Source: Granulosicoccus antarcticus IMCC3135 (GTDB lineage: Bacteria; Pseudomonadota; Gammaproteobacteria; Granulosicoccales; Granulosicoccaceae). From it: a stretch of DNA of 64,000 nucleotides. The stretch covers positions 6,506,501-6,570,500 of the forward strand of contig NZ_CP018632.1 of assembly GCF_002215215.1 (NCBI RefSeq), read 5' to 3'. The position numbers and the translations under genes are program-made. Below are positions 19,623 to 48,395 of the stretch, in pieces (the first letter of the stretch is position 1; every line of letters starts with the position of its first letter). The notes below the pieces were generated by a model that was not told where the DNA came from, made no database searches, and was given only the letters and a program-made list of their open reading frames with translations.

Positions 19623-19999
19623 CTACCCGCCCAACTGCGCCAGTTCAAATGCATACTTCTGCCTTTCCCGCCTGCCCTGCTCAGAGGAACCATTGATCAA
19701 AGCCTCCAGCCGCTCCAGATTCACCGGGCACATACGCACCTCCGCGATCACATTGCCATATACAGGGTCTGTGACTTCTATTCGAGTTTCACCTGCAGCG
19801 GGTTGTGCCGCGTCATGCACTTCAGATTGTGCTCATCGATAACGCTATAGTCCAGCAGGTTCTCTCGCAGGAACCGTGATAGCAGGGCCTGAGAGAAAGC
19901 ATTCATCTCAAACAGATAGCCTGGTATACGATTGGTGACCGCCTCGCCTTCAAGCGCGACACCTTGCGACTCAACCAGTAAGCTACAGAACGTCCTCAT
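19623..19999 (-). pseudogene. Decayed minus-strand gene, weakly McrC-like
   Basis: Two overlapping frames appear to be one broken gene. Residues from 19999 read [20 protein letters not shown] ... [24 protein letters not shown] ... IDEHNL, which recalls the central part of McrC subunits of methyl-dependent restriction enzymes. The other frame continues from 19820 with DPVYGNVIAEVRMCPVNLERLEAL and ends at 19623. The frame before 19999 is open to about 20070 and carries the same KPQ...AVSG peptide seen before rhuM, here without its stop. The family assignment is weak; that this is a remnant is clearer. Confidence 0.4.
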
Positions 20000-20167
20000 T
20001 CTGCTCGTAATGACACATCCGCTTACGGCGCCCCCATGCTGAGGCTTTACGTGAATCCTTCCTCATTGAGCTGGTCAGAGATGCTTTCTCGCACTAGCAC
20101 CGCACTCAGTTCCAGTCTTTACTGTGAGAGAATTCTTTCATCAGTCCAAACAGCTGGCAGGACGGCA

Positions 20168-23571: not shown

Positions 23572-23857
23572 CCCTATACAGAACGTTCGAACCCGCCGTG
23601 GCACATGCGCTTATGCAGAAGCTTGAGTTTGTCTTTACACCCAAGCATGGCAGTTGGTTGAATATGGCTGAATGTGAGTTCAGCGTTCTGGCCAGGCAAT
23701 GTTTGGATCGACGCATTGCCGACGTGCCTACGCTGACCAAGGAGATAGCCGCATGGCAGACCCATCGCAACGAGAACGCCAAGCCTGCCGACTGGCGCTT
23801 TACAACCGACGATGCTCGTATCAAACTCAAAAGGCTTTACCCGAAAGTATCATGCAG

Positions 23858-24892: not shown

Positions 24893-24930
24893 CGGGGAGC
24901 ATCAACACCGCATGCGTTGGCCTGGACTGT

Positions 24931-26384: not shown

Positions 26385-27248
26385 GGGCCTGTCATCAATT
26401 AAAAGATAGATATTTTGACTTGTCGACCCGTTATAGTTGACGCCTACAGAGAACAGGCGTCGATGGGGCTCCAAACCATGGTTGGACGATACGGGCTTTC
26501 CGACAGACAATGGCAGCAACTTGGCCCGTTGTTACCTGGTCGTGCTGACACGGTCGGTGTCACTGCCAAGGACAACCGACTATTTGTCGATGCCGTACTT
26601 TATCGCTACCGTGCCGGTATTCCCTGGCGGGATCTGCCAGCTCGTTTTGGTGACTTTCGTGTCATCCATACTCGCCATTGTCGGTGGTCGAAAAAAGGGA
26701 TATGGGAGCTTGTTTTCAAGGTATTAAGCGAAGACGTAGACAATGAATACGTGATGCTTGACAGTACGATTGTAAGAGCACATCAGCACAGTGCTGGGGC
26801 GGCTGGGAGCGAAAAAAAATAGAGTGCCTCGGGTTGTCGCGAGGGGGAATAAGTACCAAAATTCATGCACTGTGCGATGCATTGGGAAATCCGATCAGCT
26901 TCAAGCTCACACCCGGACAAGCATCGGATCTAGAGGGCGCTGACGCACTGCTGCCAGGACTCACGGCCGGTGCGCTGCTGGCCGATCGAGCTTATGATGT
27001 CGAGGAACGCGTGCGTAAGCGATTGCGAGAGGCGAACACTGAGGCCGTTATTCCCAGTAAGAAGTCTCGCCTTGTAAAGATCGAACATGACCGTGATTTG
27101 TACAAAGCTCGACATCTGATCGAAAATTTCTTCGCTAAAATCAAGCAGTACCGTGCGATTGCGACGCGTTACGACAAGCGAGCATGCAATTTTCTGGGAG
27201 CGATTCACTTGGTTGCCGCCATTGAATGGCTTAATTGATGACAGGCCC
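26385..27248 (+). mobile_element. IS5-family (IS427 group) insertion sequence in hsdR
   Basis: The 864-bp element has perfect 18-bp inverted repeats (GGGCCTGTCATCAATTAA) and sits in a CTAG-type target with TA duplicated (26383-26384 and 27249-27250). Length, ends and target fit the IS427 group of IS5. Confidence 0.93.
26463..27238 (+). CDS. IS5/IS427-group transposase made from two frames
   Basis: The first frame (ATG 26463 to TAG at 26820) has the N-terminal part (GLSDRQWQQLGPLLPG, IPWRDLP, VMLDSTIVRAHQHSAGA with the first catalytic Asp). The second frame runs to 27238 with SRGGISTKIHALCDALGNP, LLADRAYDVEERV and HLIENFFAKIKQYRAIATRYDK. The switch lies at a run of eight A (26812-26819) just before the stop; a -1 shift there joins the halves. 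Programmed -1 shifting at A runs is normal for IS427-group elements, so the transposase is probably intact. Confidence 0.88.
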
Positions 27249-30169
27249 TAGGTCTTTCTTGAAGATTTCCAGTGCATCCTTTGCCGTTCGGCATTCCTTC
27301 AAGTGATTGTCAGCGTTGCCGATCAGTACCGCGTCCCCGGTCTTGCGATTGCGCTCCATCATCTCCAGAGAAACCTTGTAGGCATCCACTGCCATCTCAT
27401 AGCGTTTCGCCCAACGGTCCACCGCAGGTTTGCAGATACTGGCCAGGGCCTTGTCGCTCTTGCCCTTCTGGTAGAAGGCGGTAACGAACTGTTCCACCTC
27501 AGCCCATTGAAAGACACCGAAGCCGCGCAGCTTTTCGAACAAGTCGTAGACCATCTGCGGGTCAGACACATCGGTCAGTTCCGCTATCTGATAGTACGGC
27601 TGAAACGCTGCCAGTACATCGTCCGGGTCATTGAAGAAATCCAGCACGAAGGTGCCGCTGGCTTTCTTGCCAGCATAGTCCCGATTCAATCGTGACAGGG
27701 TCTGTACACACTCCACACCACCGAGCTTCTTGTCCACGTACATGGCACACAGTTTAGGCTGATCGAATCCTGTCTGGAACTTGTTGGCCACGATCATGAC
27801 CTGATAGTCGTCAGTATCAAATGCCTTGCGCATGTCCCGTCCTTTCAGGTTCGGGTTCATGTTGGTTTCAGTGAATTTCTCGCCCAGCAGGTCGGTTGCT
27901 CCCGGGTCTTTCTCCGTGAATTCCACCTCACCCGAGAAGGCCGCCATGGCATGAATGCCGGTATAGCCCTTCTCCGTGATGTAGCGATCAAAACTGATCT
28001 TGTAGCGCACCGCCTCCTTGCGAGAGCTGGTCACCACCATGGCTTTGGCCTGGTTTCCCAGCAGGCCCATGACGTTGTCCTTGAAGTGCTCGACAATCAC
28101 CTGCACCTTCTGCGAGATGTTGTAGTCATGCAGGCGCACCCACTGGTTCAGCTTCACCTTGGCCTTCTTGCTATCTACCTCCTTGTCCACATCCTGCATT
28201 TTCAGGGCAAGGTTATAGGCCACCTTGTAGCTGGTGTAGTTCTTCAGCACATCCAGAATGAAGCCTTCCTCGATGGCCTGTCGCATGCTGTACACATGGA
28301 ACGATACCGGCTTGTTGGTTTTGGATGCAGGTTCACTCGGGTCTGGCCTGCGACCAAAGAGTTCCAGTGTCTTGGCCTTGGGCGTGGCGGTGAAGGCAAA
28401 GTAGCTCAGGTTCGGGGAGGCACGACGCGAGGCGATGATCTCGTTCAACACATCGTCAGCGCTCTGCGGCGCATCCGGGTCCGCATCGCTGTCACTGGCA
28501 TCAGTCATCAGCACTTCCTTCAACTGACGCGCTGTGGAGCCTGTCTGTGAGGAATGCGCCTCATCGGCAATGATGGCGTAGTTGCGCTCCTTCAGGCTCA
28601 CCGTATTCTCGATGGCCTTGAGTACATGCGGAAACGTCTGGATCGTGACAATGATGATCGGCTGAGACTGCTCCAGAGCAGATGCCAGCTTGTCAGACTT
28701 CGATCCTTCCCCCTCCCGGCGATTGATACGCCCTACCACCCCATCGACATGTTCCAGCTGATAGATGGTGTCCTGCAACTGATCATCCAGCACCGTGCGG
28801 TCCGTGACGATAATCACCGAATGAAACTGCTTGTTGCCCTTGTCGTCATACAAAGACGAGAGCTGATGCGCGGTCCAGGCAATGGAGTTGGACTTGCCAG
28901 AACCGGCACTGTGCTGAATCAGATACGACTGTCCCGGCCCCTCACTACGCGCTGACGACAACAGCTTGTTGACCACATCCCACTGATGGTAGCGCGGGAA
29001 CATCATGGTCTCTTTCTTGGATTTACGCCCCTCCCAATCCTCTACCTCCTTGATCTCAAGGTGCATGAAGCGCTGAAAGATACGCAGCAGGTTCTGTGGC
29101 AACAGCACCTCGTTCCACAGATAGCTTGTCGGATCACTGCCATCTTCCGGTATATCGTTACCCTTGCCACCCTCAGCCGTACCCTTGTTGAACGGCAAGA
29201 AGAAGGTCTTGTCGCCCTTCAACTGCGTGCTCATCCATACGTCATACTGACTGACTGCGAAATGCACCAGAGCGCCGCGCTTGAACGTCAGCAAAGGCTC
29301 AGGCTTGCGGGTAACCGGGTCTATCGGCAGCCTCGTCTTCTGATACTGCTCCTTCGCATTATTGAACGCCTGCTTGAATTCAGACTTCAGCTCCATCGTC
29401 ACCACTGGCAGACCATTGACAAACAGCACCAGATCAATGCGCAGCTTCTGCGCCATCAAACCGGTTTCTGCCAGATGCTTTTCTGTCGCCCAGGGGCTGT
29501 ACACCAGTTCGGGCACTACCCGCAGTCGATTCATGCCATAACGAATCAGGGTATCCGGATTCAGATCGTGCTCCGGCTTGAACTGACACAGACTGAAGCG
29601 TGTACCGCGATCCTTGATCTCATGGCGCAAGACACCCAAAGTGCCAAAGGTCCGAAGCTCCTTGTCCGCCGCATTCGGATCAGCCTTGTTCAACTGCGAA
29701 GCCACCTTCTCCAGAAACTTCTCTTCCGGATTATTCGGATAGATACCGCAATACTTCTCCCACTGATCCGGCTGACTTTCCTTCACAAACGCCAGCGTAT
29801 CCTCTGAATACAAAGCCAGCTCGCGGTTGTATTTGGAGGGCGATCCCCGCAGCCACCCATGGCCCACCAGGCACTCGACGATGTGGTTCTGTAAAGCGTA
29901 TTCGGCTGATTTATCGGGATGATGACTCATGGAGAATCCGTTTTCTGATGAGAACTAAAACTCTCGTGTAATCGATGGTACAGATCAACTATGGTCAAGC
30001 ACATGATTGCAATGCGAGCCATATCGTTGTCGACAAATGCTTGACGTTGTCCGAGTATGCAGCAGAGAGTTTAGCAAATTGTAGAGAGTGCTGACGACAG
30101 TGACGAGGTTTTACTGCTCTGCCATGATCAATGATGGTAGATAAGCGGCATTTTCGGATAAAAATACAA

Positions 30170-33764: not shown

Positions 33765-34100
33765 TCAGATAAGCATTGCAGACGAACCGGCGTGTAGAAC
33801 GTTGATCAAAGTACCAAAGGTCCGAAACTCCTCATCCGCCGCATTCGGATCAGCCTTGTTCAACTGTGAAGCCACCTTCTCCAGAAACTTCTCTTCCGGG
33901 TTATTTGGATAGATACCGCGATACTTCTCCCACTGATCCGGCTGACTTTCCTTCACATACGCCAGCGTATCTTCTGGATATAAAGCCAGCTCGCGGTTGT
34001 ATTTTGAAGGTGATCCCAGCAGCCACCCATGGCCCACCAGGCACTCAACAATGTGATTCTGGAAAGCGTATTCGGCTGATTTATCGGGATGGAAGGCCAT
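33765..34100 (-). pseudogene. hsdR: hsdR 5' fragment, third copy, adjoining hsdS
   Basis: From ATG 34100 (MAFHPDKSAEYAF) about 98 residues match the HsdR N-terminus, up to the block EFRTFGTL near 33806; then the frame diverges (INVLHAG...) and stops. It overlaps the end of hsdS by 20 bases, the expected hsdS-hsdR arrangement, so this is probably the original start of hsdR, cut off when the Fic cassette and the further copies came in. Confidence 0.85.
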
Positions 34101-34416
34101 AGGGGTTTGCATCCATGCTGGAGGTTGATGTGGACTCTGGGGCTTGCCAGTTGCGGACATCTATTTTGCCGGTGACGGCGGCGGAGATTAGGGCTGTGCG
34201 GCGTTCTTTGAGCAATTCGGCTGCCTTACCAGCAGATTGTATTATCTGGTTGAAACTACCTGATATTTCAGATACAAAATTCAAAATGTGGCGCTGTTCC
34301 TCTTTAGGCGGTATCTGCAATGGAATGCGGCCAAGTGTTTCTGTATTGAGGTTGTCCATCGTTGACCCCTTTGATTCCAAAGCAAGTTCGGCAACTGCTC
34401 CAGCTGAAGTAACAAG

Positions 34417-36029
34417 GTAACCGTTCACGGCCCCGCATGCGGGGTGTAGGAACCGCAGCTGATTCTTTCAGCTAGTCGCTAACCGAGGCGTATCAAACGG
34501 AAAGCGCACTTTCACCTCGCCCTCAATCATCGACTGGTGACACGCGATGCGGATAAACTGATAGCTTGAGATCCCTATCCGTTGTGCAGTGCCCACGATG
34601 CTCAGTATCAAGGGACGAAACTGATCGCCTTGATACGATTGGGTGGCAAAGCTCAACTTGCGCCAGATCACATAGGGCCGAAGCGCACGCTCAGCGCTAT
34701 TGTTGTCTAGCGGGATCCTGTGATCTTTGAGAAAGGTCCAACACATCGATTCTCGCTTGAGAAGATGTTGGCATTGACGTTTGGTTCGTCCATCGATTCG
34801 TAGCCGGGCACCTCGCTCCAGCGTCTGGTGAAAGCTGCGGCGTAGTCGCTGCATTCGCCGGTAATAAACAGCCTCGTTGATGAGTTGATCTTGCCATCGA
34901 TGCCGGGTGCGGATAACCGCGTGGGCAAGTAATAAAAGTCGGCGTCCGATCTTGCCGCCATTGCTTACCCGTCCAGCAATATCGATGAATTTTCGAATCA
35001 GGTGCGGCCAACACAGTTGACGACGACTTTCCGGTACACGGTTATAACCCACGTAGTCATCAGTGACCAAATACCCTGTGAATTCGCCTAACAGCCTATC
35101 GGCAGCCTCTTTGCCGCGCGAGGCCTGTGTCAGGAAATAGCAAGCTTGGACACACACTAACGACCACAGCCAACGGCACTCATTGCCGCGAAAATGCCGT
35201 GTTTCATCGGCATGCGCCACGGGTTGTTGGCGAACAAAATCGCCAATCTGTCGGTACGGGTCGCCTAATGCGCTCGTCGCTTTTGCCTGAGCCTGAGAGA
35301 GGGCACCGAGACTGAAATGCAACTGCCAGTGCTCAACCAGATAATCCTGAATATTACGAATCGACAAATGATAACGCCCGGACAGATGAGCGATAAGTGC
35401 CACCAGATTGGGGCCCATCTGCCCCGAAGGCACGCTATCGGGAGTCTGGGCGCAATGATGTTTGCCACACCCGTTGCATTGCCCACCGAACAGCTGATGC
35501 TCAATCACTGAAAAACGCACCACCGGGATATCAAACACCTGGTGACGACAGCGTGGCTCGGGATCGACAAAAATAGAGCCACCACAGCCACAGGCCGCGG
35601 TCGGAAAATAGCGCTGAATCTGATCGACATCACTTTCGGGTACCAGCGGGCGTTCGTGCTTTTCATGACCCGGCTGCGCACCCTTTCGTTTTGTAGATTT
35701 GGGTTTCTTTTTTCGGTTGACTCGTTGCGAGGTGGAGTCTGAAGAGGGTGGACGGGAGGAGTTACGCGAGCTTTTGCCCATGCGTTCGTTCAGCTCTCGA
35801 ACCTGTTCAACAAGCTCCTCATTCTGCGCTTTAAGATCTGAGGCTATCGATTCTAACTGACCAACCACATCCCACAATTGCTCGATCTGAGTGCGAGCCT
35901 CATCAAGCGTTTGGGGTGGATTTGATAGATGAGGATCGGGCACGATGATGGCTAATAAACTCGCGGGGCCTTTTCTTCAGAATAGCCTACATAGTCAGAA
36001 AACGCTATTGCAACGCCGTGAACGCTTAC
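34417..36029 (-). mobile_element. IS66-family, single-ORF element in hsdS
   Basis: The ends GTAACCGTTCACGGC (left) and GTAAGCGTTCACGGC (right, complementary strand) are inverted repeats of a 1613-bp element. AGTAACAAG flanks both sides (34408-34416 and 36030-36038); IS66 elements duplicate 8 bp, so one of the nine bases is shared by chance. A CCCCGCATGCGGGG palindrome lies just inside the left end. Confidence 0.9.
34468..35943 (-). CDS. IS66-family transposase (TnpC type)
   Basis: The 491-residue protein starts at GTG 35943. It has an N-terminal coiled coil (DVVGQLESIASDLKAQNEELVEQVRELNERM), the SSRNSSRPPSSD block, a zinc-binding region (CGCGGS... CNGCGKHHC), and the DDE core (AHADETRHFRGN, VTDDYVGYN, HRIPLDNNSAERALRPYVIWRK). 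There are no tnpA/tnpB genes, as in the single-gene branch of the family. It appears intact. Confidence 0.9.
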   Translation of the reverse strand: MPDPHLSNPPQTLDEARTQIEQLWDVVGQLESIASDLKAQNEELVEQVRELNERMGKSSRNSSRPPSSDSTSQRVNRKKKPKSTKRKGAQPGHEKHERPLVPESDVDQIQRYFPTAACGCGGSIFVDPEPRCRHQVFDIPVVRFSVIEHQLFGGQCNGCGKHHCAQTPDSVPSGQMGPNLVALIAHLSGRYHLSIRNIQDYLVEHWQLHFSLGALSQAQAKATSALGDPYRQIGDFVRQQPVAHADETRHFRGNECRWLWSLVCVQACYFLTQASRGKEAADRLLGEFTGYLVTDDYVGYNRVPESRRQLCWPHLIRKFIDIAGRVSNGGKIGRRLLLLAHAVIRTRHRWQDQLINEAVYYRRMQRLRRSFHQTLERGARLRIDGRTKRQCQHLLKRESMCWTFLKDHRIPLDNNSAERALRPYVIWRKLSFATQSYQGDQFRPLILSIVGTAQRIGISSYQFIRIACHQSMIEGEVKVRFPFDTPRLATS

Positions 36030-37084
36030 AGTAACAAGCAGGTACGCATACTCTGAACTTAACCGACTTTTTAGAGTAGCCCTTAAGCTACCAGTCCCGC
36101 ATAGCCAGCCTTCTTCTTCCGTTCCAACGACAGCGCATCTACCAAGCTCGCCACGACGAGCAAAGATCAAATCTCCAGCACGAAGTACATGACGTGACAG
36201 CTTTTCGGCTGTTTCATCATCAACTGAAACCTTACTTTCGGGAACTAGCTTGCCCTCTATCATATGAACTGGGTTAATTATCGGTGTTCCGTTCTCAACA
36301 TATTCTTCGGAGTGCAGCTGGCTTCCAAACGGTCCCGTTTGCATTTCTAATGTGCAGAATTTTAACTGTGACACAGTCCAATGCTCCGGCACCTCCCCCA
36401 ACCACTCAACCCCAGAATCCTTCATCGGCGCATCCGGATTCAATCCCTTCGTCACCGCATGACTGATCACCGCCTGACGTTTTTCCTTCAACAGCTTGAT
36501 CAGTTGTTGTTGCTTTTCGATCAGCGTGTCTATTTGGGCGGTTTCGTGGTCGAGGAAACTCACTATGTTCTGCATTTCTCTCGGCTCACTTATTCCGATC
36601 GCTATTCCCGCAACAGTCTCTGTGTTCAGGTTAAGCTGAGTTCCGAACTTCCCCAATCCTTTGTAGGCTTGTTCGCCAGCAAATACATAAAACAGCAATT
36701 TGGGAGGGATCTTCAGCTGCGGGAAATATACAAATCCATCGTGAATACACGCCTTCACCGCAGTAATACAGGGTTTGCCCACTGTTCCGGCAATACTCAG
36801 GAAAATTGCCCCTGGCTCTAGCTTGACGCTCAATGAACTCCCGATATCCGACAAGCGTTGAATCGACCCTTCCAAGTACATCTTTGAAGCTGAAACATCA
36901 GCAATGCGAGTCCAACAATACTCACCTTCGTCATCGAAATATATGGGGTCCTCGATCGGTCGGGGTGAAGCACCTCTCTTTACCGAAGCCAAGTGGCCAA
37001 TTTTTACTGCTTCCCAGTTACTGGGAATATTCCCCAACCACTCAACACCACTATCCCGATACTCCGGATAAGCCTCATACCTAC

Positions 37085-38276
37085 TCACACCCCCACCTCA
37101 CCCAACAACCCCATTATCTCCCGCGACACTTCCGCCAACTCCGCATCAATCACACTCAAATCCCGCGGTGGCACATACTCATAAAAATGCCGATTAAACG
37201 GAATCTCATACCCCACAATCCCGATATCCCCATCCTTGTCATCCCGCTTTGATGCATCAATCCACGCATCCGGTACATGCGGCTGCACCTCCTTGGCAAA
37301 GTACGCCTCATTCACTTCATTGACACTACGGCTTGGGTCCAGTGGCACATTCTCGTTATCCCGAAGATCACTGTCCGGCGTGTATTCCACTACCTGTGCT
37401 TTGCCCTTCGCATCCGTGGTTTCAAACAGTCCATACACCGGATCAGCCTCTGCCTTGTGCACCTTCTTGACAACCTTCTCCGCCTCCGGATTGGTCCAGC
37501 AGATCGCACTCAGTAATTGCTTCTTCTCCGCCGTCTCCAGCTTGATATCCAAGGTCTTGCAGGCGGTCTTCAACACACAATCCAGCGGATTCACATCATC
37601 ATGCTGCTCATTGCCAATCTCGCCCTGCAAGGCGCGGGCTTTGAGTAACAAGGCTTTCTGATTCAGCCAGGTCTTCTCATTCAACAGGTCCTTGATATCC
37701 TTTTCCTTCATGGCACTGAGGTTGGCCTTGATATGCACACGAATCTCGGTCTCGTAGTCAATCAACTGCCCATACTGTTCACAGTCCTCTTCATCGGACC
37801 AGTAAGTCTCCCCGTATTCTGCATACACCCACTTCATCGCCGTATTGATGGCACGACTACTAGAGAAGCGCAGTTCGCTCAATAGCTCATCACTGAACTG
37901 CCAGGATTGTCGCAAGGGGCGTTCGATGGTCAGGCGTCGATACCCGAATTCATGGCTGGCAAACAACTTGGCAGCGAAGGTCTTGGCTACCGCCTCCTTG
38001 GCATTGGCAGACTGGCGTCCGCGATTGCTTTTCTGCTCGGCGGGTTTGTCCAGGGCTTGTCGTTCCACCGCCTCATAGTTACCAAAGCAGCGAACAATGG
38101 TAGCCACATCTTTCTCGCTCATCTCATTGCGCTTGGACCCCAAGGACTTTCTCATCTTGCCGTAGAGGTTCACGCCATTGATCAGCAGTACCTGGCCTTT
38201 TTGTTCTTCTCGTTTCTTGTTCGACAGCACCCACACATAGGTGGCAATGCCAGTGTTGTAAAACATATCCGTAGGT
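37085..38276 (-). pseudogene. hsdM: Type I modification methyltransferase, 3' part
   Basis: The roughly 395 codons begin at the conserved [21 protein letters not shown] segment of HsdM and run through [23 protein letters not shown] to the normal C-terminal domain, ending in an overlap with hsdS. The methylation motifs lie in the 5' part, 9 kb away. An in-frame GTG lies just upstream of the junction (38287), but a product from it would lack the catalytic domain. Confidence 0.92.
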
Positions 38277-38284
38277 TTTCCGGT

Positions 38285-38764
38285 CACCCTGTTCCGAGGT
38301 GTTTTCGCTATGGTTCTACCAATTCTAAAACAGAACTAAACACTAATAATTCACATTAGCATTTAACAATTATAGTGATTTTATCTTGATTCTAATGATC
38401 ATTGCTTCGGAGTACATTTATGGGACTTGTAGGAAATGTGAGCATGTGATGCTGCTCTGCCTGACAACTGGTTGCTATATTGGTCACCGTACAAACTATC
38501 TGGTGCAGTATTCGCAGTAGTAACGACAGGCAGATTTGTCCTCAAAGGAGACGGTCACGGGTGCCGGAATTTCACCGAGATCACCTTCTACACTATTTTA
38601 TTTGGTGAGCGTGAGACACGTTTACCTGCAACCGTCACGGGTATATACACAAAATGATTTACAGTTTCGGTGAATGGACTTGAAGAAATATTTTGTACCT
38701 ATTTACTGTGTCTTAAAGACCACTATCGCGAAAAAATACGGTGTACAGCGGTAGTTCCTCGGAA
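38285..38764. other. 480-base AT-rich stretch without a convincing gene
   Basis: No frame with recognisable similarity was found. Two near-identical dodecamers, ACGGTCACGGGT (about 38550) and ACCGTCACGGGT (about 38633), and the pair TTTCACCGA / TCGGTGAA nearby look like debris of an IS end. It separates the kinase gene from the hsdM junction and may also contain that operon's terminator. Confidence 0.4.
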
Positions 38765-39349
38765 TCAAATCACTTTCTCCAACTTAGCCTCAACAACAAC
38801 GAACAATTCCTCTGCAATTTTCTGAGCCGTCTTCGTCGTGCAGTCAATTGTTACAAGGCCAAGTTCCTCGTATGCTTTTTCAACTGTATCCATATAACTG
38901 CCTTTAGTTTTAATGAGTCGATCAGAGACAGACCGTTGTGCACGATTATTCAATCGCTCTTGTCTGATGGACTCATCACTTACGCTTAGGTAAAATGTAA
39001 AATCGGGTTGCACTAATTCCAATGTAGAAATATCAACTGAGACACTCAATTCACTGGTCGGATGGTAGGCGATTGTGCTGTAAATGTATCTGTCACAAAC
39101 TACGTTACCATGGGCCAATTTTTTCTCTATCGTGTCTGAGCAATGTTTTACAGAAGATAGAAAATATAAGTAATGTGCATCTACTCCACAATTGTCATTA
39201 ACATATTTTGCAGATGTCAAAAATCCTTCAAACACTGACGACATATTTATTGTTGAATATTCTCTATTATTTAGCAATTTGCTTAGCAGACCCGAAACAG
39301 TTGACTTGCCAGCTCCGTCCATCCCTTCTATGACAATAAGTTTTCCCAC
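38765..39349 (-). CDS. Thymidylate-kinase-like P-loop nucleotide kinase
   Basis: The 194-residue protein has the thymidylate kinase layout: Walker A GMDGAGKST at residues 9-17, an acceptor region with CDRYIYSTIAYH (the DRY/DR-Y motif, about 86-97), FYLSVSDESIRQERLNNR (LID-like region), and a C-terminal IDCTTKTAQKIAEEL helix typical of Tmk. Tmk phosphorylates dTMP to dTDP; a defence-island relative may use a modified nucleotide. It starts 16 bases after the stop of the large methyltransferase gene and is surely cotranscribed with it. It is markedly more AT-rich than the flanks. The genome's housekeeping tmk is expected elsewhere. Confidence 0.8.
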   Translation of the reverse strand: MGKLIVIEGMDGAGKSTVSGLLSKLLNNREYSTINMSSVFEGFLTSAKYVNDNCGVDAHYLYFLSSVKHCSDTIEKKLAHGNVVCDRYIYSTIAYHPTSELSVSVDISTLELVQPDFTFYLSVSDESIRQERLNNRAQRSVSDRLIKTKGSYMDTVEKAYEELGLVTIDCTTKTAQKIAEELFVVVEAKLEKVI

Positions 39350-39364
39350 TTCGTCGCCCCCCCA

Positions 39365-41848
39365 CTAGGCATCCCTTGATGCAGATATCTTTTTCAACAC
39401 GATTATCATCCTGTCAGAATTATCATCAAATGCAGAATTGGTTGAGTAATCTCCATAAACATGCTCTATAGAAAAGCTTCTTGAAAAGGCTATTCTAATA
39501 TCCTCTAATTCATATTTTTTGTTAATTTCTTGGTCGGTAACATAAACACTTTCACCTGTTTGCAAATTTTTTATATCGTATGTGTATATTGCATTTAAAA
39601 CATTTTTGTTTATTACTTTTTTATCGATTTTTAAATTAATTTCATACGGATAGGAGTATGACCTCCTTTTGTAAGATTTATTTATAACCTTTGTTGGATT
39701 TTTCAAATCTAATACAAGGACTCCCGTGTCATCCATATTCCTATTGCAACTATCTATAAATTTGTCTAAGTCATTTGCAGTACTTAGATAGTTTAATGTT
39801 GACCACATACAGATAACCAAGTCAGGCTTTTCTGCAGTGTCCCAATCACGTATGTCGCCAACTTGGAAAATCGCTCCTTTAGTTTTAGAGGCTATTTCTA
39901 TTTCAGTCTCAGAAATGTCAATGGCGGTTACCTTGTAGTATGCAGACAATATCGTCGCGTGTCTTCCAACTCCACATCCTAAATCCACTATGTATTCGAC
40001 TGCTTCACCACGAACGTGCTCCATACTTCTGATGAATTCGATCTCCTTTTTCGTGTTTCTAGATGAAGCCTGCAGGAAAAGTGGAGCTAGTTCATTGTAA
40101 AGAAGTTTGTGTTTTGCATGATCGACAAATGACCCATAATTTTCCACAATCTCTTCTGGTTTGAATTTGTATCTTCTACGCTTACGCAAAGACTGAATCA
40201 AACAACCTCGATCGTTAAAACTATGCAGAATGTGCGTATCTATTGCAGACTGCGAAAAATTCAAACTCGCCCATAGATCATCAAAATATCTATTAAATTT
40301 ATCGTACGGCTTGTCTTCCTTCTCGAAAACCATGGTGGTGTTATCATCGCTATTGTTAACTAACGATGGGCTATAGAATATTGTGTCATCGACAATCATA
40401 ATCGCTCCGACCGGCAAAGAGGAATAAAATCTCAACTCAATCAATTTTTCTCCCCCTTCCTTTAGTATTTTCAGATTTTCTTCAAATACCCAATCTTGTA
40501 GGTATTTAGAATCATTCTGAGCCTTGCCACCGTTCCCAGATTCAAAGTCTTTCCACCCCAATAGAGAATAGAACTGATTTTCAAAATATATCTGAAATAT
40601 TTCTTCTCTCGGGCTAAGGGATAATATTTTGACATCCACACCTTCGCGTATTTTCTTTTGAATTAGCTCACGATACTCCCCTGCAAAACCACCCAAGCCA
40701 ACACCATAAACGTAGAAACGTGATTTAACCCCTTCAATATTATCTCTATAATAATTTCTTATATCCGTTCTATTTGAAATAGTGTTAATTTCACTTTTCT
40801 GCTTTTCATTTTTTTCCCGTCTCTTCGAGCGTCTGGAAATTTTTGATATATCATTTGGCAGTTGCTTATTAATAGAGATTGCCACAATACGGGCATGTGT
40901 ATTTGGGAAGGACAGTTGGCTACCATGTTCGTCCTTTACATCAACTTCATGTAATCTCCAAGCTTCCTTGAACCCTTCGGTTACTGTAGGTTCAATTGTT
41001 ACAGTTGCTGCTCCTAAATGACTCTCAATGGTCTTTTGAAGAATTGCTGTGTCTATACTTGTTAGCTGCTCACCCAATTCATATTTGAAATTATTGACAC
41101 TATTTGATCTTATTAATTTATGCAGAAGCTCGACTGCCAAAGTCGAATCGATATTAATATACCCATTGGCAATAGCAGTGGTTTCGAGTTCAGCAATTGA
41201 TAGTTTGTCATTAATTATATTGGCTAACTTTACCAGATCTCCAGAAGTAGCATTCCCAACCTTTACTTCAACAATTTCTGGCCATCGCTCCACTCTGATA
41301 GGCTCTCTAGCGAAAAACACATTTTTATTGAACACACTAAATATTTGACCAAAAAAAACACTAAGTCGAAATCCTGGACTTCTTTTAGGAAGTTCATGCA
41401 AAACTGCTTGCATAGACAATACTAGTCCTGGATTATTTGCAGTATTTTTGAAATCATTCATCTCTCGTATAAGCTCTTCAAGGCGTTGGGTTAGATCACC
41501 TTGCATTACACGTAGCTCTTTCCCATATTTATCCAGAATTTCCTTTGACTTCTCTTTAGCTGCATTAGCAGCGGAATCACTTATTTCTACTAGAATGGCT
41601 TTTTTTATTTTAGTGGATTTCAACAAATGCTCCGCTTCAGAGCCGTCCGCTCCACCTATACTAACTAATAAATATTCACTAAAATCTTCCTTGGCAGTTT
41701 CGTTGTTTGAAGATAAAATATTTAGGATATACTCTGACTTCCGCAAGCCTTCGTTTTCAAATGTTTTTTGATACTCTTTATCAAACGAAATGTCTTCATT
41801 TTCCAAATTATATGCAATTAGGGATTTTATTTTTTGGCTGACGTCCAT
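39365..41848 (-). CDS. Methyltransferase - PLD-like - methyltransferase fusion protein
   Basis: ATG 41848 is preceded by AGGAAACC at good spacing, giving 827 residues; the open frame upstream belongs to the neighbouring IS. Residues ~1-330 look like a Rossmann methyltransferase variant: VSIGGADGSE (62-71), LVEIS (86-90) as the acidic strand, GDLTQ, and VLSMQAVLHELP (143-154). A basic linker (SRRSKRREKNEKQK, ~338-351) leads to a phospholipase-D-like region (~363-530: YVYGVGLGGFAGEYRELIQKKIREGVDVKILSLSP ... MIVDDTIFYSPSL) lacking the HxK motif. Residues ~600-827 are a second, canonical class I methyltransferase (VDLGCGVGRHATIL at 620-633, VTAIDIS, FQVGDIRDW). It is the first of two genes; the kinase follows. 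I know of no characterised system of this make-up. Confidence 0.65.
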   Translation of the reverse strand: MDVSQKIKSLIAYNLENEDISFDKEYQKTFENEGLRKSEYILNILSSNNETAKEDFSEYLLVSIGGADGSEAEHLLKSTKIKKAILVEISDSAANAAKEKSKEILDKYGKELRVMQGDLTQRLEELIREMNDFKNTANNPGLVLSMQAVLHELPKRSPGFRLSVFFGQIFSVFNKNVFFAREPIRVERWPEIVEVKVGNATSGDLVKLANIINDKLSIAELETTAIANGYINIDSTLAVELLHKLIRSNSVNNFKYELGEQLTSIDTAILQKTIESHLGAATVTIEPTVTEGFKEAWRLHEVDVKDEHGSQLSFPNTHARIVAISINKQLPNDISKISRRSKRREKNEKQKSEINTISNRTDIRNYYRDNIEGVKSRFYVYGVGLGGFAGEYRELIQKKIREGVDVKILSLSPREEIFQIYFENQFYSLLGWKDFESGNGGKAQNDSKYLQDWVFEENLKILKEGGEKLIELRFYSSLPVGAIMIVDDTIFYSPSLVNNSDDNTTMVFEKEDKPYDKFNRYFDDLWASLNFSQSAIDTHILHSFNDRGCLIQSLRKRRRYKFKPEEIVENYGSFVDHAKHKLLYNELAPLFLQASSRNTKKEIEFIRSMEHVRGEAVEYIVDLGCGVGRHATILSAYYKVTAIDISETEIEIASKTKGAIFQVGDIRDWDTAEKPDLVICMWSTLNYLSTANDLDKFIDSCNRNMDDTGVLVLDLKNPTKVINKSYKRRSYSYPYEINLKIDKKVINKNVLNAIYTYDIKNLQTGESVYVTDQEINKKYELEDIRIAFSRSFSIEHVYGDYSTNSAFDDNSDRMIIVLKKISASRDA

Positions 41849-41901
41849 TGAAGGTTTCCTATTGCACCAATTGATTAAACGAATTATTTGTACTACAATT
41901 T

Positions 41902-43396
41902 GTAACTGCTCAGCCCACTGATACAATAGCTGGATTGAAGGCTTGGCCTTGGATGCTTTTACGCAGGGAATTAAGTACTTTACGGCCCTGTTTTTTCGCT
42001 GAGGAAATATAGCCACAAGTCCGGCAAAAGATGTCAGCACCTTGCTCGGAGCGAAAGCAGCCCGATATCTTTAGTTTGGCCTTGATCATTCGCACATCAT
42101 GCTCGGTAAAATTATTGTCAAAAGGCAGAGTCAAATCATAGAGAAAGGCCAACGTTTCAACCTTGTATCTGAATAGCCGGTCATGCAGGTTCTTCGCCTT
42201 GTGTTGTTTGGCTCGCCCTCGCTTCTTTGTCGTTGATATAGGCATCACCGGCAGTTCGGCGCGTCCCTGGCGCAGTATCCGACTGTAGCGTCGATCGTAG
42301 TGGTTGATGCGAGACTCATCAAGCATTGACGCTCCCTTGGTCCGAGCCTCTTCGGTCTCCTTATTGGCATTCAGCAGGCAAGTGATCAACTTCTCGGCCC
42401 AGCTCTGTTGATGCTGCTCATGAGCATGGATCAGCTCACGCAGAAAGTGAGCGCCACACAGCACATGAAGGATGGCGAAGCGAAAATAGCTGGCCCAGCA
42501 ATCATGTACAGCGTATCCCTTGAACCCCTCAAGAATGCCCATCGCCATCATGGCTCCATATCAGCGTTTGACTTGTCGACAGTAATTGGTAGTCTGCTCG
42601 GTGGCAGCCACTGCAGCTGGTTGCCCACGCGCAGAGCGCTTTCGTCAAAGCGGGCCACCTTGCTGTCAATGACCATGGCTTTGACCCTGGTATCGAACTC
42701 CGCCAGATGATGGTAGGCACGGATCAAAATATTGTTCACAGTTCCTTGGCTAAGACGAATCTGGGACAGGTCCGCCACCCCCTCTTTGAGTCGTGCGTAG
42801 GGCAGCATCTGATACTTTCTCAGATAGCCACGCACTGAACCTCTGTGTGACTGGTTGACGTGTGTTGGAAAGGCGGCCTTGTTGCGGCTCTGGCAACACG
42901 GGCATGCCTTGATCTGTGCACGATGCTCGGTCGCCTCATTCTTGATCGGCGGGATATCGAATACCTGGCGCGCTTCGAAGCCGGGTACGGGTACGGGTAC
43001 CGTGCTCAAATCCAGCCCACAGCGGGTGCAGGCTTCCACTGCATGATCCACGATGTGATCCGGATGAGCCGTCGCCTTCAACGTCTTGCCGGGATGACCC
43101 GGTTGCACTCCAGGGCGCTTACTACTCTTAGCACGGGTACTTTTCGATTTACGCTTTTTGTAGCCGTCACTTGACGGTGGCTTACTGCTGTTGCGGCTGT
43201 TCAGTTTGAGCTGCGCTTGTACCCCCTGAACCTGTCTGGTTAGTGCAACGACTTTCTCCAACAGTTGCACGATCAACGCATCTTTCTGCGCTAAGGTGAG
43301 TGTGCTGAAGTCGACGGGGGTGAGCATGATCTGAGTTATAAAAGGATACTGGGCGGCTGTCTAGTACTTTCGTGCATCGGCAGGCTGAGTAGTTAC
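41902..43396 (-). mobile_element. Degenerate IS66-family element
   Basis: The ends GTAACTGCTCAGCCCACTG (left) and, complementary, GTAACTACTCAGCCTGCCG (right) are related inverted repeats bounding 1495 bp. The flanks show no 8-bp target duplication. The left end lies 53 bases before the methyltransferase start, so this element may have cut off upstream genes of that operon. Confidence 0.75.
41910..43327 (-). pseudogene. IS66-family transposase, frameshifted
   Basis: The N-terminal half (from GTG or ATG near 43327) has the leucine-zipper start, LKLNSRNSSKPPSSDGYKKRKSKS, the CTRCG and CPCCQSRN zinc ligands, and IDSKVARFDESALRVGNQLQWL. The reading then leaves the family, passes a stop in the expected frame near 42560, and another frame resumes with MGILEGFKGYAVHDCWASYF and LPFDNNFTEHDVRMIKAKLKISGCFRSEQGA to 41910. 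A frameshift plus a nonsense codon make it inactive. Confidence 0.85.
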
Positions 43397-43647
43397 CTTC
43401 AGTCAAGCTATTGCAAGAAAGAAGGATCGTTTAGATTAACGTGTGGCGTATATTTCACTATAATGGTTCGGATGAATTTAAATATCCGAATGATACGGGT
43501 AACTTGCGCTGGTGTCCAACGGAACGCGTATAGCTAGCATTGGGCCCAAGCCTCACTGCCTATGTCTGCGCCATCAAATGTAGCGCTCTAATTACCGCTC
43601 AGAAGCTGCGATGTTTGACGTCGAGCCCCCAAGTTTTCGGAAATATG
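43397..43647. other. 251-base remnant between two IS66-family elements
   Basis: No gene is recognisable. A TATAAT (43459-43464) and an inverted repeat TTCGGAT / ATCCGAA (43467-43473, 43484-43490) just after it look like a promoter with operator that has lost its gene. It differs from the flanks of both elements and may be a scrap of the inserted island. Confidence 0.35.
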
Positions 43648-43700
43648 GTGAGCTTCCGGCAGCCCAGTAAAATTCGAGGCTCAACTGTGCTACGTCAGAA

Positions 43701-45416
43701 TCACTTTTGCTGGCTGGGGTAGTTCCAGGGCATCCAGTTCTGCGGGGCGGCACGCACGGCTAGCTGATTTCTCTGTACCGCTATCAAGTAGGCTAAGGCA
43801 TCGACATTTGACTCCATACAGGTGGCCAGTATCGAGGTGATGGTGTCTGAGACTTGCGCGCCGTTCTCTGTCTTAAAGAATTGAGAATTCTTGCGGCCTC
43901 TGACCATCAACTTGATGATTCTTTCGCACTCGTTGTTATCCAATGCCGCCCCGGGGGTATGGCAGAAAGCACACAATCCGTCGTAGTGTCGATCAAAGTA
44001 CGCCATGGCACGGCCCAGATTGCTGTTTGGCTCCACCGGACCACCCTCTACGGTCTGTGCCTGGCACCACTGTCTGATCTGAGCCATCAATGGAAGTGAA
44101 TGCGCGTGATGATAGGCCTGGCGCTGCTGGGGATCGAACACCTGTTCTTTGCAATGATCGTCGTTGACCCATATTCCGGCGTAAAGCTCCAGTGCAAACA
44201 GGCTCTCCTCGGGGCATTGCAAGGCCAGCTCGGCAAAGCCCCTTCGACCATGCGAGTTACAAAGTGAGACCACAAAGTCCTTGTCAGTCACGTGATTGGA
44301 GCTCAAGGCATCGCTCATCAGAATGGGCACCGGCAATCCGGATTCTCGTTTACCCAGAATCTCATCGAACCATTCGCCAGCGTGACCCACGCTGGTTTGA
44401 TACAGCACCAATCGTTGTGCCGGCATTAGTGTCGGAGGATCCGTGGTTGCACTATTTCCCTCTTTTGGCAAAATAGCCAGACAGGCCGAGCTGTAAACCC
44501 CTGAGCGGTGTTCGCGCCCCTTGGGTGCTGCCTGTTTAATCAGAATTCGGTGCGTCGTGTCATCCAGATAGAACAACTCAGCGTTGGCTGCCATCGATAT
44601 CATGGCCACAAACACCGGCGTCAAGTGATCGGCCAGCTTCTGGCACTGATCGAAGATCGTGGAGGCGCTCAGGTGTGAGCCGAGCAACCCTTGCAGTGTC
44701 TCCTGGCGGTAGAACGGGGTAGCGGCAAAGTACCGGTAGATCGCCATCAGGGCGCAGGCCGAGTAGCCATACATCTGATCGGGCCGTCCATCGGCACGCA
44801 CCTCAGGTGGCAGTTCGGCAGTAAAAATTTCATGACAGGCCGAGCATCTTAATTGGTCGCTCACATGCTGCTCGGCACTGAAGGGCGAGTGCCCGACAAT
44901 GCGCAGCAACTGGGCTGGATGGTACTTGTACACCTTGCCAGCCTGACAACTGGGGCAACCATCACCCTTGTTCAAGCCCTCGATGCCATGATGATGGACC
45001 GTGGGTTTGATGGCAGGCTTCTTGTCCTTCTTCTTGCGCCTGTCCTTCTTGTCGGTGCCGGTACGCGGGCGTGCTGTGTCGGGCTGTCCGTCAGCATCGG
45101 CTTTCGTGTTGCCATCGGCACCGTTGCTTTTCTTCTTACCGGGATGGTTTTTCAACTGCTCGGACGGATTAATCATGCCCAGCAGCTTTCGCAACTTCAC
45201 AATGGTGAGATCGTTGTGACTGATGCGCTCTTGCAAGCTGGCCAGTGTCAACATGGCACTGCTAAGCAGGTCATAGTCATCGGCACTAAGCGCCATGCCA
45301 TGCTCGCGCGCCTCGGTAATGCGTGCCATCAGCTCATCGAGCTGGGCCTCGCTCAGGTCGATGAAACCGGTGGTTTTCTCACCCTTGGCTGGGGACTTGG
45401 GGGCTTGCACGCTCAT
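43701..45416 (-). CDS. tnpC: IS66 transposase TnpC
   Basis: Starting at ATG 45416, which overlaps the tnpB stop (ATGA), the protein has 571 residues. It contains an N-terminal helical part (DLSEAQLDELMARITEAREHGMALSADDYDLL), a Lys/Asp-rich linker, zinc ligands (CPSCQAG, CSACHEIF), and the catalytic region (ELFYLDDTTHRIL, PILMSDALSSN, GAALDNNECERIIKLMVRGRKNSQFFKT). This is the long-linker branch of TnpC and looks intact. Confidence 0.9.
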   Translation of the reverse strand: MSVQAPKSPAKGEKTTGFIDLSEAQLDELMARITEAREHGMALSADDYDLLSSAMLTLASLQERISHNDLTIVKLRKLLGMINPSEQLKNHPGKKKSNGADGNTKADADGQPDTARPRTGTDKKDRRKKKDKKPAIKPTVHHHGIEGLNKGDGCPSCQAGKVYKYHPAQLLRIVGHSPFSAEQHVSDQLRCSACHEIFTAELPPEVRADGRPDQMYGYSACALMAIYRYFAATPFYRQETLQGLLGSHLSASTIFDQCQKLADHLTPVFVAMISMAANAELFYLDDTTHRILIKQAAPKGREHRSGVYSSACLAILPKEGNSATTDPPTLMPAQRLVLYQTSVGHAGEWFDEILGKRESGLPVPILMSDALSSNHVTDKDFVVSLCNSHGRRGFAELALQCPEESLFALELYAGIWVNDDHCKEQVFDPQQRQAYHHAHSLPLMAQIRQWCQAQTVEGGPVEPNSNLGRAMAYFDRHYDGLCAFCHTPGAALDNNECERIIKLMVRGRKNSQFFKTENGAQVSDTITSILATCMESNVDALAYLIAVQRNQLAVRAAPQNWMPWNYPSQQK

Positions 45417-45850
45417 GGTCGAGGGGATTGGGGAGCACGGGGTGTTGTTGCGGGAGTGGGACAAAGCATAGCGGATACCTGTGAAGACGCAAGGGGCGTT
45501 GCATGACAATCACCGGGTTCTGACGTGGGTTGACCCGCTGAGAACCACTCGCCGCTGAGCAACAAGCGCAGTTGCCGGGCACTGGCCGGTGACAGGGCTT
45601 CATGGCCAGTAGGCCAGCCGGTGAACTTGCCACGCGAGAGTCTTTTCGTCATCAGCCAATAGCCAGTACCGTCATAACTCAAGGCTCTAATCATGGTCCT
45701 TGCGCGATTGATAAACACGAAAATCGTTCCATCACTTGGATCTTGTTCCAGCGTGTTCCGGCACTGAGCAACGAAGCCGTCAATTCCGCGCCTGAAATCC
45801 GAAGGAGCCACCCCAAGCAGTATCGGGCTTTGATGGGTAAGCAGAATCAT
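45413..45850 (-). CDS. tnpB: IS66 accessory protein TnpB
   Basis: The 145-residue protein shows the TnpB/Orf2 pattern: PSDFRRGIDGFVAQCRNTLEQDPSDGTIFVFINRARTMIRALSYDGTGYWLMTKRLSRGKF. It overlaps both neighbours by four bases (ATGA). TnpB helps TnpC in transposition in this family. The C-terminal ~45 residues are a Pro/Ser-rich extension beyond the usual end. Confidence 0.9.
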   Translation of the reverse strand: MILLTHQSPILLGVAPSDFRRGIDGFVAQCRNTLEQDPSDGTIFVFINRARTMIRALSYDGTGYWLMTKRLSRGKFTGWPTGHEALSPASARQLRLLLSGEWFSAGQPTSEPGDCHATPLASSQVSAMLCPTPATTPRAPQSPRP

Positions 45851-46290
45851 CAGCAGGCCCTCGTGTTGCCGCCAACCCGGGCGGCCGCCTGGAACACCTC
45901 GTCGAGCGTGAATGCACGATGGATATGAATCACGGCCTTGTTAGGTAGCTCGATGATCAGACTTTCAGTGATTGGCGGAGCCGGCTCAACCAAAGCCTTT
46001 TCAACGTGGGGTAACCGAACGAAGCCAGCTGGATGCTCGGCATCAACAGGACACTCCGGGGAAGTACTATGGGGTGCAGGCTGCGTACCAGACCATTGTT
46101 TGAGTGCATTGGCGTTAATGCGCAATGCCCGACAAACATGGAAGGCACAGTGTTGCTCAAGCAACGCCACCGCACAGTGGCGCAATGCCATCGGTGTCGG
46201 TCCACGTCGTGTCCGGCTGCTGCGCCATTGTTCGAAAGCGTGCTGAGCGCTTCTCAGTGAAGGTTTGAAATCAACTACGGCTGCGTTCAT
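45850..46290 (-). CDS. tnpA: IS66 accessory protein TnpA
   Basis: From ATG 46290 the protein has 146 residues. The N-terminal half is a Trp/Arg-rich helical DNA-binding region (FEQWRSSRTRRGPTPMALRHCAVALLEQH), and the C-terminal half carries the TnpA-like strand ESLIIELPNKAVIHIHRAFTLDEVFQAAARVGG. It is the first gene of the tnpABC unit. Confidence 0.82.
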   Translation of the reverse strand: MNAAVVDFKPSLRSAQHAFEQWRSSRTRRGPTPMALRHCAVALLEQHCAFHVCRALRINANALKQWSGTQPAPHSTSPECPVDAEHPAGFVRLPHVEKALVEPAPPITESLIIELPNKAVIHIHRAFTLDEVFQAAARVGGNTRAC

Positions 46291-46377
46291 CGACTGTCTC
46301 CAAAGAATCGGTTGCTGGTGGAGACACAGTGAACCAGACAATCAGGGTGAAATTTTACTGGGCTGCCGGAAGCTCAC

Positions 46378-47014
46378 GATGTTCGTGTATGTATTCGCTG
46401 GCACCGACTAAAAAACCTGCGGTGCCACTTGATGGATCGCATATGGTGTCTTCAGCAGTAGGCTGTGTCATTTCTACCATCATTTTAATGATATGACGCG
46501 GTGTACGAAACTGACCGTTAGTACCTGCGGTGGCAATTTTTGACAGCAGGTACTCATACAAATCACCTTTAGTGTCCCGATCATCCATTGCAATTTTGTC
46601 GATCATTTGAACAACTTGATCGAGCAATCTTGCCGTGGGTATCATGAAGGTCGCGCCCTTCATATATTGCGCAAATGCACCAGCTTTAGAACCAAGCTGC
46701 TTCATCAGCTCAAACGCAGTCAGATTATCCATGTCTTTTTGCGGCTGAGTAAATAGCGCATATAACGCCTCAGGATCTTCATCGACAAAACTGTGCCAAC
46801 GCAGCTTTGTATATTCAGCGCTATAGATCGGATTTTTGAGTTCGCTGCCAATCAAGTTGGCTTTCTTTTCTTCAAGCTGTTGCTTTTCGTCAAGACGACG
46901 TAGAAACAGCAGGTAGGTAAATTGCTCGATAACCGTGAGAGGGTTAGAGATACCGCCAGTCCAGAAAGCTGTCCAGATTTTATCGACCTGGCTCTTTATT
47001 TCACCGGTAATCAT
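46378..47014 (-). pseudogene. hsdM: 5' part of a second, different hsdM, cut by IS66
   Basis: About 212 residues from ATG 47014 match the N-terminus of type I M subunits of another subfamily (TGEIKSQVDKIWTAFWTGGISNPLTVIEQFTYLLFLRRLDE, then GQFRTPRHIIKMMVEMTQP, then DPSSGTAGFLVGASEYIHEH), ending at the IS66 boundary just after the SAM-binding motif DPSSGTAGFL. It differs clearly from the resident hsdM, so it came with the insertion. Confidence 0.9.
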
Positions 47015-47155
47015 TTTTTATTATTATTGCCTATCTTTTATTGGAGATTGAGCGGAATTTTGCACCAAAATATGGGAATTCGACACCACGTTTTCCCAAT
47101 ATCGTTTTCACTGGCTGACAAAATACTGACATCTAAGCGCTAGCTCGTTCAGTCA

Positions 47156-47169
47156 TCATAGCGCTATGA
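47156..47169. repeat. Perfect 14-bp palindrome near the right end of the hsdM insertion
   Basis: TCATAGCGCTATGA is self-complementary and lies ~70 bases inside the right junction. It could be a protein-binding site of the inserted segment; nothing else supports a role. Confidence 0.35.
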
Positions 47170-47243
47170 TCAGAATGCTCGCGAATATGCACGTATAGTA
47201 GCTTTTCTGCGGAAAAGGCGTTCGCTATGCCGGAAAACGCCTG

Positions 47244-48395
47244 CAGAGCCACGATGCTTTCAAGAAGATCGGCTTCCAGAATATAGCGGCGTATCTCGGA
47301 CTCGCCAGAACCGGCACCGCCAGTAAACAATGGTGAGCCATTCAGGATGATGCCGATACGGCCACCGCCCTCCTTGGCATCGCGCAGTTTGCTGATCAGG
47401 TGCATCAGGAACAACAGGGAGCCATCGGACTTGCGCGGCAAGCCGGGGCCGAAGCGGCCATCAAAGCCCTTCTCCCGTTGCTCGGTTTCCACATCCTTCT
47501 CGATCTTCTTCCAGTCCACGCCAAATGGCGGGTTGGATAGCATGTAGTCGAACTGCATGGCATAGAGCTGATCGTTGGACAGGGTATTGCCCAGCTTGAT
47601 GTTGTTCACTTCCTGCCCCTTGATGAGCATGTCCGCCTTGCAGATGGCGTAGCTTTCGGGGTTCAGCTCCTGGCCAAAGGCGCGCATCACGGCATTGGGG
47701 TTCAGCTCGTGTACGTATTCCATACCCGAGGACAGGAAACCACCGGTACCCGCTGTGGGGTCATAGATGGTGCGGATGATGCCGGGCTTGGTCAGGGCAT
47801 CATCGTCTTCCATGAACACCAGTGCAGTAGTCAGGCGCACGATATCGCGTGGGGTGAAATGCTCACCGGCCGTCTCGTTGGAGCCTTCTGCAAAACGGCG
47901 GATCAGTTCTTCGAAGACCAGCCCCATGTCATGGTTGGAGACCACCTTGGGGTCCAGGTTGATCTGGCGTACCCGCTGCACCACCTGATACAACAGATTG
48001 GCATCCCCTAACTGACCAATGAATTCTGCGAAGTTGAAATACTCGAAGATCTCACGGGCATCTCTGGAGAACGCCTGCATGTAGGAGATCAGGTTGGCCT
48101 GTATGCCAGACTCCCCCAGCTTCGACAGATCCATCTTCGAGGTATTGACGAAGTTCAGCCCATTGGTGGCCCGAATCAGCAACTGTTCGGCAGCCTCTTC
48201 CGGCAGGCCCATAGCCTCCACTTTATCGACCTGAGCCAGCACCGCCTCCTTGCTCTCCTCCAGTACGCATTCCAGCCGACGCAGCAGAGCAAACGGCAGG
48301 ATGATCCGCCCATACTGACTTTGCTTGAAATCGCCGCGCAACAGATCAGCTATTGCCCAGGAGTCCGAGGCAAGATTGGTGGAGGTTGACGACAT
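47244..48395 (-). pseudogene. hsdM: Type I modification methyltransferase, 5' part
   Basis: From ATG 48395, 384 codons match Hsd[38 protein letters not shown], then [21 protein letters not shown] motif [17 protein letters not shown], and catalytic NPPFGVDW (NPPF). After [10 protein letters not shown] the native sequence stops; the reading goes on for ~36 foreign codons to a stop at 47133. With the 3' part (37085-38276) a normal subunit of about 780 residues results. Split as it is, specific methylation should be lost. Confidence 0.93.

Follow-up and report, generated by a model that had tools for sequence, protein, structure and literature searches.

A portable methyltransferase-fold domain, fused to a second methyltransferase and encoded beside a thymidylate-kinase-like gene, in a candidate conflict cassette of Granulosicoccus antarcticus

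RESULTS

The gene pair and its N-terminal methyltransferase-fold domain

The window analysed here, a 64,000-nucleotide stretch of the Granulosicoccus antarcticus IMCC3135 genome (contig NZ_CP018632.1, positions 6,506,501 to 6,570,500), holds two neighbouring, intact genes on its minus strand: one for an 827-residue fusion protein (39365–41848; ATG start, with a Shine–Dalgarno-like AGGAAA upstream) and one for a 194-residue thymidylate-kinase-like protein (38765–39349; GTG start). We read the pair as a horizontally acquired immune-type (conflict) cassette with a methyltransferase as its effector, to which we give a probability of roughly 0.48; that it is a defence cassette at all stands at even odds. 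The evidence that carries this reading concerns the N-terminal domain of the fusion protein (“N-domain”; residues 1–335, 40844–41848, minus strand), behind which lie, on the same strand, a central orphan region (residues ~336–595, 40064–40843) and a canonical S-adenosylmethionine (SAM) methyltransferase that runs to the stop codon (residues ~596–827, 39365–40063).

A preliminary description of this DNA, made from the letters alone, had seen a Rossmann domain at the N-terminus, and the AlphaFold model, built with four relatives (predicted local distance difference test, pLDDT, of 84; structural Z up to 15.8), bears this out and supports a class I SAM-dependent methyltransferase fold, including the SAM-binding glycine motif. 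Of the 50 structural matches, nearly every one either carries a methyltransferase title or has SAM or S-adenosylhomocysteine bound, at Z 14.4–15.8 and root-mean-square deviations (rmsd) of 2.9–6.6, with rows within 1 Z counted as tied; cap methyltransferases and spermidine synthases figure as well in the Foldseek lists for the Protein Data Bank (PDB) and for viral structures, with no function singled out. No Pfam or NCBIfam model matches residues 1–335 above its cut-off, and the best profile match among the five members of the domain, at 8.6e-4, is that of one member to a class I SAM-methyltransferase model of NCBIfam. The motifs quoted earlier lie where they had been placed (GGADGSE at 65, SMQAVLHELP at 145 and, in the C-terminal domain, DLGCGVGRHA at 622), and all five N-domains keep SxGGxxGxE, E88 where the following strand ends, SxxAVxHEL and REP. 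Because these are kept throughout, the domain would be an active enzyme, a catalytically competent SAM-methyltransferase.

Four other proteins carry the N-domain: two in one Magnetococcales genome, one in another, and one in a metagenome-assembled genome (MAG) labelled Afipia. By pairwise BLASTP they are 27–31% identical to the window copy (E 1.9e-49 to 1.8e-32), and behind residue 340 the five proteins have no significant similarity to one another (best cross-match E 0.09); judged by sequence, the N-domain is a portable module with unrelated remainders. Searches with it returned one of 192 genomes among the relatives (the window's own), three of 48 Magnetococcia genomes, four of 398 genomes of the phylum (its own included) and one of 385 genomes of a further class, the last at 18.7 bits over 64 positions and not inspected. 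Both the Magnetococcia and the phylum counts include genome G137, whose match (19.5 bits) looks false; its protein has the look of a periplasmic binding protein. Two peptide patterns run over the genome contigs gave four N-domain loci, three of them already known from the Pseudomonadota search; pattern scans of viral contigs gave none, and the copy at locus L039 had no match in plasmids.

The fusion protein as a whole has no full-length homologue in the 398 Pseudomonadota genomes, 72,556 plasmids or viral contigs searched. Matches to it occur in 55 of the 398 genomes; the N-domain is reached only in two besides its own (G149 and G065), and every other match begins no earlier than residue 503, in the area of the C-terminal methyltransferase; the match that starts at 503 (genome G066) holds four stop codons. 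The 16 plasmid records matched cover residues 584–721 only.

A NACHT-fused relative and a swapped effector slot

In the Afipia-labelled MAG (locus L036) a NACHT-type NTPase comes after the N-domain, with a Walker A motif and a DGLDE box plain in the sequence; seven of the nine plasmid records matching the NTPase part are annotated NACHT, and in PADLOC the same part gives a weak mad8 match. This sets the relative beside the bacterial NACHT (NLR-like) proteins, from which the window protein differs in having no NTPase domain. An HD, YfbR-like gene lies 31 nucleotides (nt) upstream, which may be a faint echo of a nucleotide link, and the methyltransferase-NACHT gene overlaps a downstream B12-binding/radical SAM gene by 10 nt. 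With a cupin gene, these form an operon-like row (L036:3239–9088: HD/YfbR-like, methyltransferase-NACHT, B12-binding radical SAM, cupin), and a protein of the Phage_integrase family lies nearby on the downstream side.

At a Magnetococcales locus (L032/L039) the N-domain is followed instead by a region of ~290 residues, here called the adaptor; an AAA_5/MoxR-type ATPase gene lies 2 nt after its stop codon, and then comes a protein with two FGE-sulfatase stretches. Searched alone, the adaptor gives 17 matches in 13 of the 48 Magnetococcia genomes, with E from 3.2e-194 (its own sequence) to 2.8e-6; they are made up of the N-domain protein, two contig-end fragments and 14 others. A MoxR-like Walker A (context RPLLVRGEPGxGKSQ) is found 163–215 nt downstream in 15 of the 17, and none in L114 and L115. 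Ten of the 14 N-termini were scanned with Pfam: three are TIR and two Metallophos above cut-off, one is PNP_UDP_1 and one bDLD3 below it, and three are without a match; by eye, the four unscanned ones are TIR-like (three) and nucleotide cyclase-like (one). Because the N-termini in front of the adaptor and the MoxR-like gene are swapped, the N-domain can be said to occupy an effector slot, the same that TIR, phosphoesterase and other domains fill in MoxR ternary conflict systems.

This swapped-effector pattern is known for MoxR ternary systems (Kaur et al. 2020, PMC7159879; MoxR/CLec variants in PMC10907252), and the available portions of PMC7159879 include TIR, calcineurin-like, PNPase and peptidase effectors. 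The main texts of the two papers do not contain the word “methyltransferase”, and no methyltransferase effector with NACHT or STAND was found in the available portions of PMC10907252, PMC8195603 and PMC12839542. Counting the N-domain only, placement as a conflict effector at a swapped N-terminal position is found in two of its four relatives (L039/L100 and L036), and that the domain is an effector-slot enzyme, a methyltransferase in immune-type proteins, we regard as quite probable. The window locus differs from a MoxR ternary system: its flanking genes are IS66 transposases, hsdM and hsdS, and partners of the MoxR, vWA and adaptor kinds are all absent.

The Magnetococcia loci L100–L116 make up a small conflict-system family, in which PNP and death-like N-termini are possible by weak match and EAL-, cyclase- and trypsin-like ones can also be seen by eye. 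The row at L032 (L032:9283–16677) consists of the methyltransferase-adaptor gene, the MoxR-type ATPase, the double-FGE protein and a further FGE-like gene. The FGE C-termini there look similar yet are variable, as in retroelement-diversified lectins; a diversity-generating retroelement is unsupported, since a search of its genome, G065, gave no reverse transcriptase (PF00078).

The central region and the C-terminal methyltransferase

The central region had been called phospholipase D-like, a name given by eye that found no support in Pfam, PHROGs, PDB sequences or structure. Besides its own, it has no match at meaningful E in 274 genomes, plasmids or viral contigs, nor any in Pfam, PHROGs or PDB sequences. 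HxK is absent from residues 360–560, as had been said, and the one HxK at 577 is without the D of HxKxxxxD. HxK(x)4D is absent and no profile matches; an inactive, diverged phospholipase D fold is possible, the model being unreliable there (pLDDT below 50 over most of the region); in the second half of the protein it is reliable only in parts of the C-terminal methyltransferase.

That C-terminal domain was described as a canonical SAM methyltransferase, and rightly so: Methyltransf_25 (Pfam) matches residues 620–707 at 6.8e-15, above cut-off. A comparison of the N-terminal with the C-terminal methyltransferase for internal duplication gave no significant similarity. In PADLOC, positions 285–445 of 492 of the mad2 model match residues 610–820 (57 bits); the genes flanking the pair are IS66 and hsd genes, and the match was not used as evidence of MADS membership.

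The thymidylate-kinase-like partner

The 194-residue protein is by its sequence a divergent, extra thymidylate-kinase homologue, and the Tmk motifs first picked out in it are backed by scores above the curated cut-offs of both Pfam (Thymidylate_kin, 8e-23, 81.5 bits against 27) and NCBIfam (DTMP_kinase, 86.9 bits against 83.25). With dTMP kinase (Tmk) it shares the P-loop, the DRY motif and the family-level scores; it differs as a second copy with AYH where the other tmk of the genome has AYQ. That other gene, of housekeeping type and flanked by mltG-like and holB-like genes (gene names by reading), is the reason for counting the window kinase as an extra copy. The kinase is without a close relative: at E 0.001, matches to it occur in 107 of 192 genomes (its own included), the best foreign one being 34% identical at 3.4e-11 and the top 19 foreign ones, from related genomes, having 28–34% identity. 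The PADLOC model PDC-M51B matches the kinase at 8.8e-26, but it also matches 13 of 14 control genomes and is therefore not diagnostic, so that PDC-M51 membership was not used; no other PDC-M51 model is listed for the fusion protein, and the name PDC-M51 was not found in open-licence literature.

The two genes are separated by 15 nt (not 16, as first given) and both are clearly AT-rich, as had been noted: their GC contents are 36.0% (fusion) and 38.6% (kinase) against 51.5% for the whole window, and their GC contents at third codon positions (GC3) 0.32 and 0.35 against 0.46–0.71 in six neighbouring hsd and insertion sequence (IS) genes. The fusion protein is present once in the 7.78-Mb genome. 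Promoter and terminator scans were without information, with 11 sites against 13.2 expected and 3 found against 2.3 expected, respectively. The term “two-gene module” is weakened, the kinase pairing being seen only here.

The surroundings of the pair

The proposal of a foreign insertion in a restriction-modification island holds: the low-GC pair splits hsdM, and matches to defence models lie nearby. The type I restriction-modification operon, of which HsdR (27231–29930) and HsdS (35952–37088) are part, is broken over window positions 33765–48395. Its hsdM gene is divided by the insertion holding the pair into a 3′ piece (37085–38287, minus strand) and a 5′ piece (46355–47014, minus strand, with HsdM_N); since these cover only positions 214–282 and 2–72, respectively, of the 311 of N6_Mtase, the centre of that domain has been lost. 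A second, shortened HsdM (47133–48395) matches N6_Mtase only to position 213.

Two IS66-family elements sit between the hsdM pieces. The first (41902–43396, minus strand), with its transposase in two overlapping open reading frames (ORFs) and with the ends GTAACTACTCAGCC and GGGCTGAGCAGTTAC, finishes at 41902 in a terminal-repeat-like sequence, 53 nt short of the fusion gene's start codon, exactly as had been read. The second (43642–46383, minus strand) has three tnp-like ORFs, the large one matching DDE_Tnp_IS66, and 33-nt inverted-repeat arms that are 94% complementary. Neither element shows a target duplication, as the flanking 8 nt differ on the two sides of each. A further IS66-like transposase is seen by eye at 34468–35943, within the hsdS region.

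To one side of the restriction-modification operon (window 18475–25665), proteins match the models AbiD (4.9e-71), PDC-S14 (2.7e-109) and PD-T4-3 (2.3e-41), for which no control was run, and a Fic protein lies further along. Matches to SspA and DndA models at 59854–61074 are read as SufS, ending a Suf operon, and not as defence.

DISCUSSION

Other explanations of the pair

The two small-molecule methyltransferases and the nucleotide kinase could be the remnant of a biosynthetic cluster for a nucleotide-activated or methylated metabolite, with its partners cut off by IS66, although we hold this to be unlikely. The best structural neighbours of the C-terminal domain are small-molecule methyltransferases, which rank it beside antibiotic and dTDP-aminosugar enzymes: PsmD (Z 19.2, rmsd 2.7, 182 aligned) and TylM1 (Z 16.8, rmsd 2.9, 177 aligned). 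It has the same fold and motifs as small-molecule SAM methyltransferases of the PsmD, TylM1/DesVI and glycine N-methyltransferase types; unlike them, it is preceded in one fused protein by another methyltransferase and an orphan region. The nearest folds of the N-domain are likewise mostly biosynthetic methyltransferases (DsyB, Z 15.8, rmsd 5.0, 214 aligned; BpumL, Z 15.7, rmsd 3.1, 203 aligned; RedM), and its sequence is weakly similar to spermidine synthases (E 0.036 and 0.019). Moreover, the IS66-family end upstream has no matching duplication, so neighbours may have been lost, and a radical SAM gene stands next door in three of the four loci inspected from a plasmid search that returned 14 records with Tmk-like genes. 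However, relatives of the N-domain stand in NACHT and MoxR contexts, the two methyltransferases form a single protein, the pair has no biosynthetic gene next to it in the window, and the three plasmid Tmk-like proteins with a radical SAM neighbour are just 27–32% identical.

As an observation in its own right, the distant Tmk-like gene adjoins radical SAM and small unknown genes on two Streptomycetaceae plasmids (L063, L065) and an Acinetobacter plasmid (L064); at L065 (by annotation) and L063 (by reading) a sulfatase-like hydrolase and a NUDIX gene are present too. These rows may be a further cassette related to nucleotides.

An effector-like fusion gene and an unrelated mobile kinase gene might also have been joined by IS-driven rearrangement, as chance neighbours with no joint function. 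The kinase is not linked to the other N-domain genes, and the two IS66-family elements have left the insertion scarred on its upstream side; on the other hand, the genes lie close together on the same strand and share a low GC and GC3 unlike those of the genes around them, which fits an operon acquired together, and we consider chance an improbable explanation.

That the genes are mobile-element or phage nucleotide or DNA modification genes (a hypermodified pyrimidine pathway) left in the island is very improbable: homologues of Tmk do occur in phages (in 32 of 50,697 phage records), the inserted DNA is foreign and rich in AT, and phrog_4752, a phage family annotated as tRNA methyltransferase, matches the C-terminal methyltransferase at 32 bits, but the large protein has no relative in viral contigs by the pattern scans, the L036 copy of the N-domain has no match in phage records (where the window protein itself was not searched), and no DNA-methyltransferase family is among the listed profile matches.

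The conflict-cassette reading

The preliminary description had also suggested an antiviral system, and context supports this part: the N-domain is found in a NACHT-type protein and in a MoxR-type effector slot, and the window is a defence island. If the pair is a conflict cassette, the N-domain would act as a portable effector, like the TIR, phosphoesterase or nucleosidase domains of NACHT and MoxR-type systems, and in the window copy, where no NTPase switch is attached, it is joined to the central region, which may be a regulatory or sensing part, and to the second methyltransferase. The extra kinase would most likely supply or consume a (deoxy)nucleoside phosphate that is used by the methyltransferases or protected from them, and the response to infection might be to methylate a nucleotide or some other essential small molecule, or RNA. 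We infer catalytic activity, regulation by the central region, a nucleotide substrate and an antiviral outcome; a nucleotide substrate for the second methyltransferase and the kinase is, of these, a doubtful suggestion that we hold tentatively.

Several observations weigh against a conflict cassette. The NACHT assignment at L036 is the best Pfam match to that part, at 20.9 bits, under the cut-off of 26.7, and no PDB sequence matches the part better than E 0.33; the ATPases downstream of the adaptor, that at L032 excepted, were identified by motif only. In two of the four other N-domain loci (L002/L037 and L031/L038), a reading of the ORFs gives no obvious conflict neighbours. It had been stated beforehand that homologues never found beside the kinase gene would speak against the pairing, and this is partly the case: tblastn finds no Tmk-like gene in the available stretches around the four other N-domain genes. 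No full-length homologue was found that would show the pair conserved together. The window protein lacks a recognisable NTPase switch, its central region matches no family searched, and among solved structures the folds closest to its two methyltransferase domains are mostly those of biosynthetic enzymes acting on small molecules.

What the finding would mean

A Tmk/methyltransferase antiphage system was not found in open-licence literature, and in the literature searched we found neither a methyltransferase in the effector slot nor a fusion of two methyltransferases that is paired with a nucleotide kinase. N-terminal enzyme effectors in NACHT and MoxR conflict proteins, as a kind, are known. 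The boldest form of the proposal, which we think improbable, is that this rare family of SAM-methyltransferase domains serves bacterial NLR-like and MoxR-type immune systems as an exchangeable effector for killing or signalling, and that the window pair is a self-contained version, its two methyltransferases and a dedicated nucleotide kinase producing a methylated nucleotide as toxin or second messenger.

The effectors known from conflict systems of the NLR-like and MoxR kinds act by breaking or making something, being nucleases, NADases, phosphoesterases, nucleosidases, peptidases and pores. If the conflict-cassette reading is true, a methyltransferase in the effector slot would bring a new chemistry to such systems, namely methylation as a weapon, and would predict a methylated target that could be searched for directly by mass spectrometry.

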